Source: Actinomadura nitritigenes (GTDB lineage: Bacteria > Actinomycetota > Actinomycetes > Streptosporangiales > Streptosporangiaceae). From it: a stretch of DNA of 64,000 bases. This document shows, in pieces, positions 7,921 to 27,329 of the stretch. A program made the translations under genes and the position numbers. A model generated the notes under the pieces. That model worked only from the letters and a program-made list of their open reading frames with translations. It did not search any database and had not been told where the DNA came from. Numbering within the stretch: the stretch's first letter is position 1; every line of letters starts with the position of its first letter. The stretch lies in the NCBI RefSeq assembly GCF_017573545.1, contig NZ_JAGEOK010000026.1, positions 1 to 64,000 on the forward strand. Reading direction: 5' to 3'.

Positions 7921-10155
<2,235 letters not shown>

Positions 10156-10228
10156 CGTCGTACCGGCGGCCGGCCGGTTCTGAGACGAGCGACACAGCGG
10201 CGGCGGGGACGCGACCGACGTCCAGAAC

Positions 10229-10294
10229 GTCAACATCGGTTGACACGCCCTCGATGTCAACCTACATTGACATCCATGGCCGGGAGAGTAATTA
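10229..10294 (+). promoter_or_regulatory. marR-ABC operon promoter/operator with GTCAAC/GTTGAC repeats
   Basis: GTCAAC (10229), GTTGAC (10239), GTCAAC (10256) and ATTGACA (10266) alternate in orientation, giving inverted repeats GTCAAC-ATCG-GTTGAC and GGTTGACA-N9-TGTCAACC. Two promoters are embedded: TTGACA (10240-10245)-17-TACATT (10263-10268) and TTGACA (10267-10272)-16-TAATTA (10289-10294). A dimeric repressor such as the MarR protein encoded downstream could cover both. Autoregulation is inferred from layout. Confidence 0.55.
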
Positions 10295-10343
10295 GGCATC
10301 TAAAGATTTGCCCTCGAACCATCAGCGCTCTAACATCGCCGCC

Positions 10344-10838
10344 ATGGAGAACCTCGGCTACGACCTCAAGGTCCTCGGCCCCATGGAGGAGTGGCCCCTC
10401 GGCCGGCTCTTCGCCGCGGCGACGCGGCTGTCGGGTCCCGTCGTCTGGCGGATCGTCGAGCGGCACGGCATCAGCCCCGCGGGGTTCTTCCTGCTCCGCC
10501 TGCTCGTCATCGAGGACGGCCTGCGGCCCGGCGAGTGCGCCAAACGGCTGCTGGTCACCCCCGCCACCGTGACCTCCGTGGTCGACACGCTCGAGCGCAA
10601 CGGCCACGTCGTCCGGGAGCGCTCGCACCGCGACCGGCGCGGGGTGATGCTGCGGATCACCGACTCGGGCCGCCGGCTGGTCGCCGAGAAGTCCGGCCCG
10701 ATCGGCGCGGACCTGCACGAGCTCTACGACGTCGTCGACGAGGGCGACGAGGCGGCCGTCCGCCGGTTCCTGCTCAACCTGATCAAGCAGTTCGAGACCT
10801 ACTCCGAGGGCACGCAAGGGAAGGGAGAAGGCGCGTGA
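10344..10838 (+). CDS. MarR-family transcriptional regulator
   Basis: Winged-helix repressor likely controlling the two ABC-transporter genes that follow. In the 164-residue product the recognition region LLVTPATVTSVVDTLERNG (about residues 65-83) and the wing with SHRDRRGVMLRIT are typical MarR features, with dimerisation helices at both ends. The ATG at 10344 has no Shine-Dalgarno site; an in-frame TTG at 10308 with AAAGA upstream is the alternative and would add 12 residues. The stop overlaps the next start as GTGA, so the three genes form one unit. The ligand is unknown; drug-like compounds are common for this family. Confidence 0.9.
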   Translation: MENLGYDLKVLGPMEEWPLGRLFAAATRLSGPVVWRIVERHGISPAGFFLLRLLVIEDGLRPGECAKRLLVTPATVTSVVDTLERNGHVVRERSHRDRRGVMLRITDSGRRLVAEKSGPIGADLHELYDVVDEGDEAAVRRFLLNLIKQFETYSEGTQGKGEGA

Positions 10839-11803
10839 GCGCACCCCCCGAGCCCGCCGTCCAGACGGTGGAGCTGAAGAAGACCTACCCGGCCGCCGGA
10901 CCGCGGCCCGAGGTGCCCGCCGTCCGGGGCATCGACCTGGACGTGCCCCGCGGCGAGTTCTTCGGGCTGCTCGGCCCGAACGGCGCGGGCAAGTCCACGA
11001 CCATCGGCATGCTCACCACCCTGGTCGTCCCGACCGGCGGCACCGCACGGGTGACCGGGCTGGACGTGGTGAGGGACGCCGTCGAGATCAAGCGCCGCAT
11101 CGGCGTGGTGTCGCAGAACAACACCCTCGACAGCGACCTGACCGCCGCCGAGAACCTGGAGTTCCGCGGCCGGTTCTTCGGGCTCGGCGCGCGCGACGCC
11201 CGGCGCCGCGCCGACGAGCTCATGGAGCTGTTCGGGCTCACCGAGCACCGCAAGGGCAACCCGTTCGAGATGTCGGGCGGGCAGGCCAAGCGGGTGATGA
11301 TCTGCCGGGCCCTGATGCACGGGCCCGAGGTGCTGTTCCTGGACGAGCCGACGGCCGGCCTCGACCCGCAGACCCGCACCAACCTGTGGGAGGTGCTGCG
11401 CGGCCTGCAGGCGGGCGGGCAGACCATCCTGCTCACGACCCACTACATGGAGGAGGCCGAGGCGCTCTGCGACCGCGTCGCGGTCGTCGACCACGGGAAG
11501 ATCCTCGCCGCGGGCACCGTGGACGAGCTGAAGGACGCGGCGGGCGCCGACACCGTCATCACCGTCGCCTACGACGCGCCCGCGCCCGACCAGATCCACA
11601 AGCTGTCCGACCGCGACGGCATCAGCAAGGTCGAGGTCAACGACGGGCAGGTCCGGGTGTTCGCCACCGAGCCCGAGGGGATCCTCGGCGAGCTGGTCGC
11701 GATCGGGTCGGCCGCCGGCGTCGGGGTCACCGACGCCACGCAGCTGCGCCCCAGCCTGGAGACCGTCTTCCTCACCCTCACCGGAAGGGAATACCGCGAA
11801 TGA
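10835..11803 (+). CDS. ABC transporter ATP-binding protein, DrrA-like
   Basis: ATPase of an exporter, probably for a toxic or self-made small molecule. The 322-residue product has Walker A LLGPNGAGKSTT near residue 47, Q-loop SQNN, signature MSGGQAKRVMICRAL, Walker B VLFLDEPTAGLD and switch His in LLTTHYMEE, then a C-terminal extension of about 90 residues like that of daunorubicin-resistance DrrA proteins. The GTG start overlaps the marR stop; GGGAG lies upstream. It pairs with the following permease. The substrate cannot be read from the sequence. Confidence 0.92.
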   Translation: MSAPPEPAVQTVELKKTYPAAGPRPEVPAVRGIDLDVPRGEFFGLLGPNGAGKSTTIGMLTTLVVPTGGTARVTGLDVVRDAVEIKRRIGVVSQNNTLDSDLTAAENLEFRGRFFGLGARDARRRADELMELFGLTEHRKGNPFEMSGGQAKRVMICRALMHGPEVLFLDEPTAGLDPQTRTNLWEVLRGLQAGGQTILLTTHYMEEAEALCDRVAVVDHGKILAAGTVDELKDAAGADTVITVAYDAPAPDQIHKLSDRDGISKVEVNDGQVRVFATEPEGILGELVAIGSAAGVGVTDATQLRPSLETVFLTLTGREYRE

Positions 11804-12648
11804 CCGCCCCGGCCGCGACCGTCCTGACGCCCCCGCCGCCGGCGCGGGCGACGATCCCCCGCACGTTCGCCGCGATGATGGCGCGCGAGGCGCGGGTGAT
11901 GCGCAAGAACTTCCTGTCGACGTTCGTCCGGGTGCTGGTGCAGCCGGTGATGTTCGTGTTCGTGTTCTCGTACGTGCTGCCCAAGCTCGGCGGCGGCGCG
12001 ATGGCGGGCGGGCCCGGGGGGCCGACGTTCTCCACGATCCTGGTGCCCGGGCTGGTCGGCTCGTCCATCATCATGCAGGCGATGATGGCGGTGATCTTCC
12101 CGCTGATGATGGAGCTGAACTGGCAGAAGTCCATCACCGACCGGGCGCTGGCGCCGGTGCCGATCCCGCTGCTGGCGGTCCAGAAGATCGTCGCGGCGGC
12201 CCTGCAGGGGCTGATCGGCGGGCTGCTGGTGTTCCCGGCCGTGCTGCTCATCCACGCCGAGGGCCAGTCCCCCCACGTGCACGTCGGGAACTGGGCCGTG
12301 CTGGTCGTGGTGATGGTGGCCGGGTCGCTGCTGGCCGCGTCCGGCGGGCTGCTGCTCGGCACGCTGCTGAACCCGCAGAAGGTGCAGGTGCTGTTCGCGA
12401 TGGTGCTGCTGCCGATGACGATGCTCGGCTGCGTGTACTACCCGTGGTCGGCGCTGGACCACATCCGGTGGCTGCAGATCCTCAGCCTGTTCAACCCGCT
12501 CGTGTACATCAGCGAGGGGCTGCGCAGCACCCTGACGCCCGCCGTCCCGCACATGCCGGTGTGGGCGTTCCTGCTGGCGATCGTCGGCGGGACGGCCCTG
12601 CTGACGTGGGCCGCCACCCGCACGTTCACGCGCCGCGTCCTGACCTGA
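11800..12648 (+). CDS. ABC-2 type transporter permease, DrrB-like
   Basis: Membrane subunit of the exporter. The 282-residue protein has an N-terminal cytoplasmic segment of about 30 residues and six predicted membrane spans (for example VLVQPVMFVFVFSYVLP and FAMVLLPMTMLGCVYY), with the ABC-2 pattern FNPLVYISEGLR before the last span. The ATG overlaps the ATPase stop as ATGA. A perfect hairpin follows the stop at 12659. A homodimer with two DrrA-like ATPases is the usual architecture. Confidence 0.9.
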   Translation: MTAPAATVLTPPPPARATIPRTFAAMMAREARVMRKNFLSTFVRVLVQPVMFVFVFSYVLPKLGGGAMAGGPGGPTFSTILVPGLVGSSIIMQAMMAVIFPLMMELNWQKSITDRALAPVPIPLLAVQKIVAAALQGLIGGLLVFPAVLLIHAEGQSPHVHVGNWAVLVVVMVAGSLLAASGGLLLGTLLNPQKVQVLFAMVLLPMTMLGCVYYPWSALDHIRWLQILSLFNPLVYISEGLRSTLTPAVPHMPVWAFLLAIVGGTALLTWAATRTFTRRVLT

Positions 12649-23170: not shown

Positions 23171-23619
23171 CACCTTCGGTCGCCCTGGACGGTGGAACCG
23201 TCCGGGGACGACGGCGGGACGAGCGCGACGCGCCCGTTCGCCGGACCGATACCCACCGGCCGCACGGCCGGTCAGGTGGGAGGTGGCCTCCGCTTGAGCG
23301 CCCGGCGCGCACGACCTCGTCGGTCGCGTGCACAGGGCCGGTCGGCCACCAACACTACCACCTCAGAGGCGCGTGCGCGCCCCGCGGGATCCGCGTCCAC
23401 CGCGGGGTACGCCATTTGCAACAACCTGGCGGGCCGCCGCCGCATTCCCGGAACCGGAACGCCCTCCGCACGCGGACCGGTCGCCGATCCCCGGCCGGCC
23501 GCCTTTTCCCACGTGGAGGTGAGGGTCATCTGACCCGGCGGGCGCCTCGCCCCGGGCGCCCCCGTTGTTACCGTGGTGCCAGGACGGCCCGGTGGGGCCG
23601 GCGCCAGAGAGGTATTCCC
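23171..23619. promoter_or_regulatory. Divergent region between infC and the Nudix gene
   Basis: No gene is supported in these 449 bases. The left half should hold the infC promoter and the start of its leader; a TAGTGT box lies on the minus strand near 23350-23355. The right half contains the inverted repeat GGGTCA-TC-TGACCC at 23523-23536, a possible operator, and GTTGTTACCGTGG near 23564-23576 about 50 bases before the Nudix start. Promoter positions are uncertain. Confidence 0.3.
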
Positions 23620-24120
23620 GTGATGCCCTCAGTCGAGACCGGTTCCCCAGGCCCCCTCACCGCCTCGCCGCCGGTCCGCCTGCAGTTCGCGCAGAAGGCG
23701 TTCATCACGGCCGGAGGGCGGCTGCTGATGGTGCGCAAGGCGGCATCCGACCCGTTCCAGCCCGGCCGGTGGGAGGTGCCGGGCGGGCGCCTGGACGTCG
23801 GGGCCGACCTGGACCTCGACGACCACATCCGGCGGGAGGTGTGGGAGGAGGTCGGCCTGAGGATCGAGCCGGGCCCGCCGTTCCACCTGTGGCAGTGGTT
23901 CATGGACGACCGGTCCCCGGACGCGGCGGGCGGCAGGGTCCGGGTGGTCGCGGCGGCCCGCCGCTGCCGCCCGCTGACGCTCGACGTCGCGTTCGGCAAC
24001 CAGGACGAGAGCGACCACCTGGACGGATGCGCCTGGGTGCCGCTGGACGAGGTGCGCTCCTACCCGCTGATCCCGAGCCTGCGCCCGGTGGTGCGGGCGT
24101 TCCTGCCGCTCGCCCGCTGA
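23620..24120 (+). CDS. Nudix hydrolase
   Basis: Probably hydrolyses a nucleoside diphosphate linked to another group (X); substrate unknown. The 166-residue protein has a single Nudix domain. The box reads GGRLDVG, then a longer than usual spacer, then RREVWEEVGL, so the metal-binding REVWEEVG part is intact while the first half has about two extra residues and lacks the early Glu. KAFITAGGRLLMVRK and RWEVPGG are typical. GTG 23620 (or ATG 23623) follows GAGAGG. It is seven bases upstream of the PfkB-like gene, so the two are probably co-transcribed, and both sit in an island between infC and aroE. Low-specificity housecleaning is the alternative role. Confidence 0.88.
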   Translation: MMPSVETGSPGPLTASPPVRLQFAQKAFITAGGRLLMVRKAASDPFQPGRWEVPGGRLDVGADLDLDDHIRREVWEEVGLRIEPGPPFHLWQWFMDDRSPDAAGGRVRVVAAARRCRPLTLDVAFGNQDESDHLDGCAWVPLDEVRSYPLIPSLRPVVRAFLPLAR

Positions 24121-24127
24121 CGGCCGG

Positions 24128-25084
24128 ATGGACGCGGACGCGGGGACGGGCGGCGCCGCCCGCTCCCCCGTGCGCCCGCCCCGCCCGGACGGGACGGGCA
24201 GGCGCCGCTTCTCCCTGTTCGTCATCGGCGACGTGCGGATCGAGGTGCGGGCGGCGCTGGACGTCCGCTTCGGGGAGCTGACCGCCGACCGGCTCTGCTA
24301 CGGGCCCGCGCGCGCTCTGGTCGCGGGGACGGCGGTGAACCTGGCCCGGTGCGCGGTGGCCCGCTTCCGCCGGGTGAGCGTGCTGGCGAAGGTCGGCGAC
24401 GACGAGTTCACGCCGGTGATCCGGCGGGAGCTGCGGCGGATCGGCGCCCGGGACCGGCTGCGGGTCGAGCCGGGCGCGCCGAACGGGGTGACGGTGATGG
24501 TGCGCGACCGGCCGGCCGGCGGCGGGCCGGGGGTGCGGCTGCTGGTGGCCGAGCAGGACGCGCCGGGCCGCCGGCTCACCGAGTCGGAGGTCCGCTCGGC
24601 CGCGGGCTCGATCCGCCGGGCGGACGCGCTGTTCCTGGACGGGTACTCGCTGCTGTCGCCGGTGTCGCGGGCGGCGCTGCGCGCGGCGGCGGGGACGGCG
24701 CGCGCGGCGGGCACAGCGGTGGCGTTCGATCTGGTCCCGCATGACATCGACGCGCGGCTTCCGGCGGCGGCCGTGCTGCCGGTCCTGTCGGCGGCGGACG
24801 TGGTGTTCGCGGAGGCTCCGACGCTGGCGCGGCTGCTCGGCCGTGCGGTGCCCGCCGGCGCGGACGAGGTGCGGGCGCTGGCGCGCGCGCTCGACGGCGC
24901 GGTCGCGGGGCGTCCGCTGTGGCTGCTGCGCTTCGGCCCGACACTGCTGGAGCGGGTGCTGGCGTACCAGCGCGAAGGGCTGTCGCTGGAGTACGGGACC
25001 GGGTACCGCGACGGGGACGTGCGCGCGGGGTTCGGCGACCGGCTGGCGGCGTGCGAGCTCTACTGGTGGCTGTCGTCGCGCTGA
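24128..25084 (+). CDS. PfkB/ribokinase-family carbohydrate or nucleoside kinase (divergent)
   Basis: Ribokinase-fold protein expected to phosphorylate a sugar or nucleoside with ATP. In 318 residues, a 27-residue basic, low-complexity N terminus precedes the core (FSLFVIGDVRIEV, then GPARALVAGTAVNLARCAV, the GG-type substrate region, and VSVLAKVGDDEF). Near the C terminus the usual DTTGAGD anion hole and base read RAGFGD (residues 299-304): the catalytic Asp is kept but the GAGD motif is altered. The enzyme may be slow, specialised or non-catalytic. The ATG lacks a clear ribosome site and probably depends on translation of the Nudix gene. Its last 25 bases overlap the convergent HIT-like gene. 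Confidence 0.82.
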   Translation: MDADAGTGGAARSPVRPPRPDGTGRRRFSLFVIGDVRIEVRAALDVRFGELTADRLCYGPARALVAGTAVNLARCAVARFRRVSVLAKVGDDEFTPVIRRELRRIGARDRLRVEPGAPNGVTVMVRDRPAGGGPGVRLLVAEQDAPGRRLTESEVRSAAGSIRRADALFLDGYSLLSPVSRAALRAAAGTARAAGTAVAFDLVPHDIDARLPAAAVLPVLSAADVVFAEAPTLARLLGRAVPAGADEVRALARALDGAVAGRPLWLLRFGPTLLERVLAYQREGLSLEYGTGYRDGDVRAGFGDRLAACELYWWLSSR

Positions 25085-25824
25085 TCGCGCGGGGACGGGC
25101 CGTCGAGGGCGGAGACCGCGCGCCGCAACGCCCGCAGGGTCCGCAGGAAGCGCCGCCGGCTGTCGGGAAGCCCGAACGTCTGCTGCCAGCGCCACGTCCC
25201 GCCCGCCAGGGCCGTCTCGCGCTCGGGCCCGCCGTCCAAGGCCGCGGCGACGGCCCAGCGCAGGAACTGCCCGCGCACTCCGTCGCCCGGATGGACGGTC
25301 GCCGTGCCGCGCTCCTCGATGAGCAGGTAGGAGCGCCCGGTGCGGAAGCGGGCCCGGAGCGCCGCGTGCCCGGCGGGCGCGCCCGGCAGGCCCTGCTCCT
25401 CCACCACGGCGCGGACCCCGGGTGCCCCCGGCAGGAAGTGCCAGTGCGCGTGGTCGATGCACGCGCCGCCGCCCTGTGACAGCGCGGGCCCGTGCTCGAA
25501 GAGCAGGAGTTCGCCGGTCCCGTAGGCGTGCAGGTAGAGGCGGGCGACGCGGTCGCGCCAGCGCAGGGCGCGGTCCCACAGCCGCTCGTCGAAGTCGCCC
25601 GCGCACTGGCGGTGCTCGCGCGTGACGAGGAGGAGGTGCCCGTCGGCGAGCGGCGCGACGTCCGGCATCAGCAGGAAGTCGCGGTCCCGGGCGAGGACGG
25701 ACGCCTCGCCGGGCAGGTGGGCCATGGCGTTGATCCGGAACCGGAGGGGCGGGCACAGCACGCACTCGCGGCCGGGCTGCGCCGATGGCTCGGCCAACGC
25801 CTCCTCCAGCAACACGGGACGCAC
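25060..25824 (-). CDS. HIT-like (GalT/HIT superfamily) protein
   Basis: Histidine-triad fold protein acting on nucleotides, as hydrolase or nucleotidyl transferase. In 254 residues, CVLC near residue 21 and RINAMAHLPGEASVL are followed by LADGHLLLVTREH and the active-site motif DHAHWHFLPG with His125, His127 and His129. The chain then runs about 125 residues beyond the triad, much longer than simple HIT proteins. The GTG start at 25824 has GGAAG upstream; a further upstream start would run across the promoter of the neighbouring gene. It is convergent with the PfkB-like gene (overlap 25 bases) and divergent from the toroid gene. Exact reaction unknown. Confidence 0.75.
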   Translation of the reverse strand: MRPVLLEEALAEPSAQPGRECVLCPPLRFRINAMAHLPGEASVLARDRDFLLMPDVAPLADGHLLLVTREHRQCAGDFDERLWDRALRWRDRVARLYLHAYGTGELLLFEHGPALSQGGGACIDHAHWHFLPGAPGVRAVVEEQGLPGAPAGHAALRARFRTGRSYLLIEERGTATVHPGDGVRGQFLRWAVAAALDGGPERETALAGGTWRWQQTFGLPDSRRRFLRTLRALRRAVSALDGPSPRDQRDDSHQ

Positions 25825-25949
25825 GGGCGGTCGCTTCCAGCGTGCCCGCGGCGCCGCGCCGGCGATCTGTGCGGACGCGGCCACAGACCCGGAACCCGAG
25901 GGGTACAGAACATGGCCGAACGGGCACATATGAAGGAGAAGGCAGCACC
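25825..25949. promoter_or_regulatory. Divergent regulatory region between HIT-like and toroid genes
   Basis: These 125 bases separate two divergent starts. TCTGTG (25866-25871) and CACAGA (25882-25887) form an inverted repeat with a 10-base gap that could be a shared operator. GGGGTACAGAAC near 25901-25912 might include a -10 box for the toroid gene. No confident -35/-10 pair. Confidence 0.3.
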
Positions 25950-27329
25950 GTGAACCAGACCCCACAGCCCCCCGCACCGGCGCCCCGCGGCGCCCCTCCC
26001 GCCACCGCGCCCTCCGGCGCCCCCACCGCTCCCGCGATCGACATGGCGGTGCTCGAAGCCCGCCTGGACGAGTCCCTGGACGTCCTGCGCGACACCTACG
26101 CGCCCGCGCCCGGCAGCGGCGGGGGCTGGTACCACGAGCTGGCCCGGCCGGAGCCCGGGACGACCGCGACGGCGCTCGGCCTGCTGGCGTTCGTGGAGGC
26201 GGGCCGCCCGTTCGAGCACTTCGACGAGGGCCTGGCGTTCCTCGCCGAGCGGCAGACCGCCTCCTCCGACGCGCTGCGCGACGGCGGCTGGGCGACCGGG
26301 ACCAGCCTCGGCATGCCCGTGGTCGAGGCGACCGGGTGGATCGCCCGGTTCCTCGCCCGCGCCCGCTGCGACCTGCGCGAGGACGCCCCGGACCTGCGGC
26401 GCGCCTACCGGTGGCTGCTGCGCAACCAGAACCCCGACGGCGGCTGGGGCTCGCTCTACGGCTGCGCGTCCCGGGTGTGGCAGACGTGCCTGGCGCTGCG
26501 CGCGCTCTGCCAGCTCAACCCGTACGACGCGGCGGTGGACCGGGGCGTGGAGTGGCTGACCGCCGACCGGACCGCGCACCGGCCCGCGTGGGGACCGGTG
26601 CCGGCGGCCGCGCCGACCGTGACGCACACCGCGTTCGTCCTGGTGACGCTGGCGGAGGCGCGGCCGGGCCTGCGGACCGAGCGGCTGCTGGACGCCTACG
26701 ACTGGCTGCTCGCCCACCTCGACCCCGACGACGACCACACCTGGATCGAGACCTACGAGGTGTCCCCGCACGGCCTCGGATCGCGGCCGGTGTGGCGGCT
26801 GGCCCTGTGGCACTACGGCCTGCCGATCGCGCTGACGGCGCTGCTGCGGGACCCGCGCGGCCCGCACGGGCCGACGGTCGCCCGCGCGTTCCGGACGCTG
26901 GCGCGCGGCGAGGTCACCGACCCCCGCCGCAACGGGCCGCCGGGCGGCGGCCGCACCTCGCTGTGGACGCTGTGGTGGCGGCTGGAGACGCTGATCGCGC
27001 TCACCCGCGTCCCGCTCGCCGGAAGCGCGGACGTGCTGCACTGGTTCCCGGACGCGACGGTCGTGCAGCGCGCCCACGCGCGCGAGCTCCCGGTGGCGGC
27101 GCTGCTCCCGCACCGCCGGTTCGCCGACCCGGTGGCGCTGGTGCGGCGGCACTGGTCGGCGCTGGTGCTCGGCTTCGTCTGCGTGTCCAGCGCGTTCGGC
27201 GTCACTCTGGGCGCGTGGGGGTGGCGCGACTTCTGGCTGAGCGTGATCGTGCCGATCGTGCTGGCCAGCGTGGACGAGTCGCTCAAGCGGCGGCGGACGC
27301 CGCGCGGCCCGCCCCCGGCGGCCCCCTGA
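25950..27329 (+). CDS. Prenyltransferase/squalene-cyclase-like alpha-toroid protein with C-terminal membrane anchor
   Basis: Repeat protein resembling the alpha-alpha toroid of terpene cyclases and prenyltransferases. In 459 residues, a Pro/Ala-rich tail (1-30) is followed by repeats including GGWYHELARPEPGTTATALG, a QW-type motif LRNQNPDGGWGSLYGC with VWQTCLALRALCQL (about 157-190), and VTHTAFVLVTLAE. The DxDD acid motif of squalene-hopene cyclases is not seen; DPDDDHTWIETYE near 258-270 is acidic but differs. Two hydrophobic spans near 397-440 suggest a membrane anchor. GTG at 25950 follows AAGGAG. Its neighbours (HIT, PfkB, Nudix) handle nucleotides, so terpene cyclisation is not obvious. 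Function unknown. Confidence 0.7.
   Translation: MNQTPQPPAPAPRGAPPATAPSGAPTAPAIDMAVLEARLDESLDVLRDTYAPAPGSGGGWYHELARPEPGTTATALGLLAFVEAGRPFEHFDEGLAFLAERQTASSDALRDGGWATGTSLGMPVVEATGWIARFLARARCDLREDAPDLRRAYRWLLRNQNPDGGWGSLYGCASRVWQTCLALRALCQLNPYDAAVDRGVEWLTADRTAHRPAWGPVPAAAPTVTHTAFVLVTLAEARPGLRTERLLDAYDWLLAHLDPDDDHTWIETYEVSPHGLGSRPVWRLALWHYGLPIALTALLRDPRGPHGPTVARAFRTLARGEVTDPRRNGPPGGGRTSLWTLWWRLETLIALTRVPLAGSADVLHWFPDATVVQRAHARELPVAALLPHRRFADPVALVRRHWSALVLGFVCVSSAFGVTLGAWGWRDFWLSVIVPIVLASVDESLKRRRTPRGPPPAAP

Follow-up and report, generated by a model that had tools for sequence, protein, structure and literature searches.

A probable nucleotide-processing cassette with an alpha/alpha toroid protein between infC and aroE of Actinomadura nitritigenes

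The 64,000-nucleotide stretch of the Actinomadura nitritigenes genome analysed here (contig NZ_JAGEOK010000026.1, positions 1 to 64,000; hereafter the window) contains, between infC and aroE, an island of four genes encoding a Nudix hydrolase-family protein, a PfkB-family kinase, a long HIT-family protein and an alpha/alpha toroid protein. Comparative analysis gives good support to the view that these genes form an evolutionary unit and not an accident of infC/aroE synteny, and they probably build a membrane-linked nucleotide-processing system. The island is read here, with slightly better than even confidence, as the Actinomadura-lineage version of a wider family of nucleotide-processing cassettes arranged around a membrane-anchored toroid.

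Each island protein was used as a query against 64 genomes of the genus Actinomadura (G000 to G063). The toroid was found in 55 of them (E <1e-100), Nudix orthologues and the HIT gene in 54 each, and PfkB matches likewise in 54, one of which (G030) is a 40% relative on another contig, leaving 53 PfkB orthologues. All four genes are present in 53 genomes and none in nine (G002, G005, G010, G016, G021, G022, G030, G057 and G036, the last being 88% complete); one genome has the toroid only (G058) and one has all but PfkB (G008). The loss is thus a shared one, since the nine toroid-less genomes also lack close orthologues of Nudix, PfkB and HIT. All matches lie on one contig in 52 of the 53 four-gene genomes, while G032 has its toroid at the edge of a different contig. 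Fisher P values for co-occurrence, calculated with relatedness ignored, range from 4e-10 to 2e-9. The initial annotation, made from the sequence alone, had grouped the four genes and named scattered or single genes without co-occurrence as the outcome that would speak against the grouping; co-occurrence above chance was found instead, though two lineages keep the toroid alone.

A genome scan yielded 56 family loci (L033 to L088); the toroid type of the window is designated A. The order infC-Nudix-PfkB-HIT-toroid-aroE is seen in most of the Actinomadura loci and in a Streptosporangiaceae metagenome-assembled genome (L035); in four loci (L041, L042, L071 and L076) the starts of the infC and Nudix matches are 2.5-4.3 kb apart, L067 lacks PfkB, and L081 has only the toroid. 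The HIT gene accompanies the toroid in 54 of the 56 family loci, the exceptions being L081 and L056, the latter with only 67 bp of contig ahead of the match. It is absent from all 24 other toroid loci that the scan returned (L089 to L112, including the type B locus L091 described below and several contigs of 3-8 kb). The HIT profile was built from these scan loci with three rows added by eye; the HIT genes of L043, L077 and L088 were also found independently by tblastn with the window HIT protein. One genome (G018) carries a second island-type Nudix gene (C42:3317-3730), 61% identical to that of the window, on a contig other than that of its island.

The linkage extends beyond the infC/aroE region. 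Thirteen family loci lie elsewhere, in Streptomyces (L033, L034, L141), Micromonosporaceae (L043, L077, L079, L143 to L148) and the archaeon Methanoperedens (L088). In all 13 a long HIT gene adjoins the toroid gene or is one methyltransferase gene away, with an additional unrelated frame in L148. A class I methyltransferase is encoded in 12 of these loci, and a deoxyribosyltransferase-like, adenosine-deaminase-like or DUF1599 gene in 11. They show four arrangements, all differing from that of Actinomadura: toroid-HIT-methyltransferase (L033, L034); HIT-methyltransferase-toroid with a deoxyribosyltransferase-like gene on the opposite strand (7/7 unfused Micromonosporaceae loci); a toroid followed by a HIT-methyltransferase fusion in one frame and an adenosine-deaminase-like gene (3/3 fused loci); and, in the archaeon, HIT-toroid, a small frame and DUF1599, which is annotated as 'nucleotide modification associated domain 1'. 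The small archaeal frame (L088, 11228-11455; about 76 aa) has no Pfam match. A toroid-HIT fusion suspected in L034 (long frame 9982-12162) was rejected, the toroid lying in another frame. Support for the deoxyribosyltransferase assignment is weak, with 22.3 and 20.3 bits against a cut-off of 28.8, and the adenosine deaminase scores 145.7 bits, under the NCBIfam cut-off of 216.55, and exceeds the Pfam cut-off in L141. Comparison across the loci gives good support to a nucleotide theme of the linked genes.

The family is sparsely distributed outside the genus. Toroids were found in 3/295 Streptomyces genomes (one of type B) and 9/300 Micromonosporaceae genomes, and in 0/395 other sampled Actinomycetota at E 1e-15, a search that scored four candidates per genome among the matches listed, so that weak members may escape it. 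In the archaeal phylum 5/148 genomes match at E 1e-8, at full length in Methanoperedens alone. Two Micromonosporaceae copies look broken: the toroid of L145 (genome G1062) is split over two frames, and L148 (G987) gives a match to the second half of the toroid only and has an unrelated minus-strand frame separating the methyltransferase gene from the toroid gene.

A sister toroid, type B, is encoded in 7/249 sampled genomes of the order. In six of the seven the gene order is viperin, toroid and an inositol-monophosphatase-family (IMPase-family) gene, with overlapping ends in the loci read; no viperin was seen in the seventh (G030). A reverse search of the same genomes with the viperin model at the same settings found viperin in 6/249, at the same six places beside the toroid (Fisher 2e-11, relatedness ignored). 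All six viperins exceed the cut-off of NCBIfam NF038283 (294-303 bits against 180), and five of the six genomes belong to one genus, that which holds Thermomonospora. The same neighbours occur on a plasmid of Thiodictyon syntrophicum, where a toroid gene interrupted by IS630 is followed by an IMPase-family gene and a viperin gene; this viperin also passes NF038283 and, like the four of the six order viperins that were submitted, matches the PADLOC pVip model. The viperin-toroid linkage perhaps represents two or three independent lineages, the plasmid included. The toroid is followed by an IMPase-family gene without viperin in the Streptomyces type B locus L142 and in a second Actinomadura violacea locus (L091), where no viperin match was obtained.

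Several observations were made at the type B loci themselves. In the Thiodictyon plasmid pTs485 (L114, 7101-9963) the upstream part of the toroid contains an extra N-terminal domain and the downstream part hydrophobic C-terminal helices, with the IS630 transposase between them. In a genome of the Thermomonospora genus (G1271; L150, 2953-5520) two further genes are located close to viperin-toroid-IMPase, one for a polyprenyl synthetase and one for a type 2A encapsulin shell protein (PF19307) that includes a cyclic-nucleotide-binding domain. The extra N-terminal domain (P0137, residues 20-120) has the predicted strand and helix order bbbb-a-bbb-a, which is Nudix-like. The idea that it is a Nudix domain was rejected for want of sequence support and stays a guess: profile comparison with the window Nudix family gave a probability of 0.3, a profile search of solved structures gave no match up to E 10, Pfam gave none for nine members, and the whole-model fold searches barely probed this domain.

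Phylogenetic analysis of the toroids by maximum likelihood (51 rows, long branches, midpoint root) recovered a single clade of types A and B and the archaeal toroid, separate from the squalene-hopene-cyclase-like rows (99/95). Within it the HIT-linked toroid of the archaeon falls with type B (95/92), and HIT linkage is therefore found on both sides of the A/B split. The tree is consistent with a history in which viperin and the IMPase-family enzyme may have replaced HIT in type B.

The long HIT subfamily also occurs apart from the toroid. Six plasmid records match the archaeal HIT query, and nucleotide enzymes lie near the HIT gene on five of them. Two Streptomyces circular plasmids (L159, L160) carry dCTP-deaminase-like and annotated NTP pyrophosphohydrolase genes; L157 and L158 encode PRA-PH/MazG-like domains, and L157 also an annotated thymidylate synthase and dihydrofolate reductase. 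In Rhizobium leguminosarum pRL1 (L161, 197-7511) nine genes encode a thymidylate kinase, a PRPP-synthetase-like protein, an SDR, a RidA-like protein, a PfkB protein, a cysteine-desulfurase-type aminotransferase, the long HIT protein, a phosphoribosyltransferase-like protein (Glycos_transf_3) and a methyltransferase; this stretch is a possible cluster for nucleoside biosynthesis. Four of the six records (L156, L159, L160, L161) have a cysteine-desulfurase-type class V aminotransferase gene adjoining HIT or a short distance from it, and PfkB and methyltransferase genes recur with the long HIT gene. These neighbourhoods speak for a nucleotide chemistry of the HIT protein that is independent of the toroid. 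In L159 and L160 the dCTP-deaminase-like, HIT, an unknown and the cysteine-desulfurase-type genes form a row with a methyltransferase gene nearby, and L160 has a phage portal gene. In the Lactococcus plasmid pUC06C (L156, 3781-6488) genes for a class V aminotransferase, the long HIT protein and an EamA-like transporter stand in a row between insertion sequences.

In the window, the Nudix gene (23623..24120, plus strand; 165 aa) has a GTG at 23620 preceding its ATG, and the PfkB gene (24128..25084, plus strand; 318 aa) starts 7 bp past the Nudix stop. The ends of the PfkB and HIT genes share 25 bp (25060-25084) in a tail-to-tail overlap. The longest open HIT frame is 25060-25977 on the minus strand; the alignment of 28 loci best fits a conserved TTG start at 25797 behind GGAGGAGG, giving a gene at 25060..25797 and a protein of 245 aa with an N-terminal CxxC, FEHG and HAHWHFL. 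HIT and the toroid gene (25950..27329, plus strand; 459 aa) are divergent, and the TTG start leaves between them a control region of 152 bp (25798..25949) that holds both presumed ribosome-binding sites, a GGAGGAG-type stretch before HIT and GGAGAAG before the toroid GTG, conserved in the same alignment. The four genes lie where the initial annotation placed them; the tail-to-tail overlap and the 152 bp from the TTG to the toroid start correct its account of HIT.

Its motif observations were borne out as well, with one qualification. The Nudix protein matches PF00293 (51.3 bits, E 1.5e-13, cut-off 21.1). The canonical Nudix box is GX5EX7REUXEEXGU; the island protein departs from this exact pattern and has GGRLDVGADLDLDDHIRREVWEEVGL, which is two residues longer and lacks the first Glu, with a retained and conserved REVWEEVGL. 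The kinase matches PF00294 (33.8 bits, cut-off 25.8); in place of GAGD, the anion-hole motif of PfkB proteins, it has RAGFGD with the Asp retained, and GfGD is the consensus of the orthologues (48 matching frames). By these alignments both variant motifs are conserved family features and not decay. The HIT protein scores below the Pfam HIT cut-off (17.7 bits against 21.5) and just above that of CwfJ_C_1 (22.6 against 21), and its Streptomyces homologue in L033 exceeds the HIT cut-off (22.9 bits). The H-x-H-x-H-x-x triad is conserved as HAHWHFL and appears as HSHIHVL, HAHLHFV and HCHIHIV in distant loci; chains of solved structure gave weak matches of HIT and CWF19-like type (best E 0.001). The toroid matches PF13243 (32.4 bits, cut-off 26.1), and its predicted fold is the alpha/alpha toroid of class II terpene cyclases. 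The class II motif DxDD had been noted as absent: a literal DPDD stands at residues 258-261 but is not conserved (D at the first position in 16/23 aligned rows and at the third in 14/23), so that the absence holds in substance. Two hydrophobic C-terminal helices (residues 402-420 and 425-448, 27153..27293; AF2 secondary structure), similarly placed in types A and B, are interpreted from the model as a membrane hairpin. Among the four island proteins PADLOC matched Nudix alone (candidate family PDC-S07, 27.6 bits), and the SCO2321-family membrane protein model gave 29.9 bits against a cut-off of 300.

These data suggest a cassette whose shared core would be the toroid and one phosphate-bond enzyme, the long HIT protein or, in type B, the IMPase-family phosphatase. 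The other enzymes would be exchangeable: Nudix and PfkB here, a methyltransferase with a deoxyribosyltransferase-like or adenosine-deaminase-like enzyme in Micromonosporaceae and Streptomyces, DUF1599 in Methanoperedens, and viperin in Thermomonospora. On this reading Nudix and PfkB are part of the Actinomadura-lineage version and not of the core. The soluble enzymes would make or trim a modified nucleoside or nucleotide, which PfkB would phosphorylate; Nudix would cut a diphosphate, HIT would break or make a nucleotidyl bond, and the toroid would bind the product at the membrane for a last step of processing, release or sensing. The order of these steps and the membrane topology are put forward as a proposal. 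Our firmest inference is that small molecules derived from nucleotides are what the toroid deals with at the membrane; the least firm concerns what it does with them. As to the pathway envisaged in the initial annotation, nucleotide processing tied to a membrane protein, the linkage and the nucleotide theme stand, while the substrate, the biochemical step and any signalling role remain conjectural.

A number of points weigh against this interpretation. The co-occurrence P values take no account of how the genomes are related, and the losses are counts of genomes and not of events on a tree; the Actinomadura cassette is nearly always at one place, and most of the 53 occurrences therefore amount to one inheritance. 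The toroid occurs without the other three genes in two members, A. flavalba (L081) and G058, possibly of a single species, and PfkB is absent from one or two members (L067, G008). The long HIT gene occurs without a toroid, none of the family being present within about 5 kb in the six plasmid stretches, and in the Lactococcus plasmid it lies without any nucleotide enzyme, the remaining named neighbours being transposases and a pentapeptide-repeat gene. Lastly, the substrates of the PfkB and Nudix families extend to sugars and other compounds.

An alternative, which appears unlikely, is that the cassette is antiviral or antimetabolic, making a chain-terminating or toxic nucleotide as viperin does, with the toroid as a membrane-side sensor, release part or effector and the island as a viperin-free relative producing a different nucleotide. 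The conflict module raised in the initial annotation finds an indirect link here, the sister toroid clade being joined to viperin, and the antiviral role itself is conjecture. The linkage is reciprocal, covering every viperin detected in the order sample, and those viperins pass the NCBIfam model and, where submitted, match pVip. The patchy distribution outside the genus, the copy on a plasmid and the two broken-looking Micromonosporaceae copies point the same way. Against it, no NF038283 match was found in the window genome (G000; assembly 96.7% complete) at E 1e-30, and the 13 HIT-type loci outside infC/aroE showed no viperin either. In most Actinomadura species, moreover, the island keeps a single chromosomal position, which is not the usual behaviour of defence genes. 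No relatives of the toroid were found in viral contigs with the type A profile, in phage records with the type B query, or in plasmids with the window toroid; the type B query retrieved only the Thiodictyon plasmid, and the archaeal toroid query gave five partial plasmid matches, that plasmid among them. When proteins of types A and B were submitted to PADLOC, the Nudix of the window and the viperins were the only ones to match. A broader and tentative form of this idea, also rather improbable, is a nucleotide-based immune or antimetabolite class with the membrane toroid at its core, present in actinobacteria, on a gammaproteobacterial plasmid and in a methane-oxidising archaeon. Viperin would then be one exchangeable enzyme, the island a viperin-free member making another nucleotide, and the toroid the common sensor, carrier or release part.

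Somewhat more doubtful is a small natural product, in which the toroid would be an active enzyme of class II terpene cyclase or sugar-epimerase-like fold that attaches a prenyl or sugar part to a nucleoside or remodels such a part; a comparable idea is the terpene nucleoside route reported for Mycobacterium (Rv3377c). The polyprenyl synthetase gene two genes away in the type B locus L150 keeps a prenyl route in view; however, it adjoins the encapsulin gene, and inspection of the other printed cassettes by eye, with no dedicated search, brought no further one to notice. DxDD is not conserved, and many toroids bind instead of catalysing.

It is very unlikely that the island is an ordinary sanitation or salvage set of Nudix, HIT and PfkB near translation genes, with the toroid unrelated or loosely linked. 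Nudix and HIT families commonly perform clean-up, and nearly all Actinomadura loci have the island at its fixed place between infC and aroE; however, the HIT-toroid neighbourhood recurs in every locus away from infC/aroE in the four other arrangements, the 21-kb locus of Actinocorallia (L086) has retained the island together with aroE but gave no match to infC, and the family was not found in the 395 other Actinomycetota sampled. Pure synteny, by which the four genes would be together only through the conserved infC-aroE region where most loci lie, is hardly credible given the genomes that lack all four and the HIT-toroid pair elsewhere in bacteria and an archaeon.

The favoured reading, a nucleotide-processing cassette around a membrane toroid, offers a lead, open to testing, towards modified nucleotides that are new. 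A toroid that served as the last step common to these systems would show what systems of the viperin type do once the nucleotide is made and how the molecules come into contact with the membrane, and the exact viperin-toroid pairing in the one-order sample makes this question directly testable. Whether or not it is antiviral, the recurrence in bacteria and one archaeon of a cassette whose product is unassigned marks a gap in nucleotide metabolism. In a literature search, no title or abstract opening described the linkage; the main viperin papers lie outside the coverage of that search, which is not proof of absence in print. The passages of PMC7159879, PMC8195603 and PMC10732462 returned by word searches contain no mention of it, and a word search of PMC11291487 returned no passage.

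The toroid shares its predicted fold and QW-type repeats with class II terpene cyclases and squalene-hopene cyclases (PF13243), and squalene-hopene cyclase is membrane-associated. It differs from them in its separate clade, in having one toroid with two C-terminal helices, and in the unconserved DxDD. The HIT protein has the triad of its superfamily (HINT, CwfJ-like) and weakly matches its chains of solved structure, but is longer, with the N-terminal CxxC, FEHG and a C-terminal extension, and scores low with the Pfam models. Nucleotide-modification clusters with DUF1599, MazG-like, dCTP-deaminase-like, thymidylate synthase and cysteine-desulfurase-type genes include the same long HIT subfamily on plasmids, and DUF1599 follows the archaeal HIT-toroid pair; these clusters differ in having no family toroid in the six plasmid stretches, and no cysteine-desulfurase-type gene was noticed in the toroid cassettes. 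A further parallel is with pVip (NF038283, PADLOC pVip), said to have been described originally by Bernheim in 2021 and Shomar in 2024: the type B toroid is encoded between viperin and an IMPase-family gene, and both systems are nucleotide-centred, whereas the toroid and IMPase-family proteins of L150 match no PADLOC model. Because the window lacks a viperin gene, the island is not filed as a pVip system and is classed with nucleotide-centred accessory cassettes that have a viperin-bearing sister.

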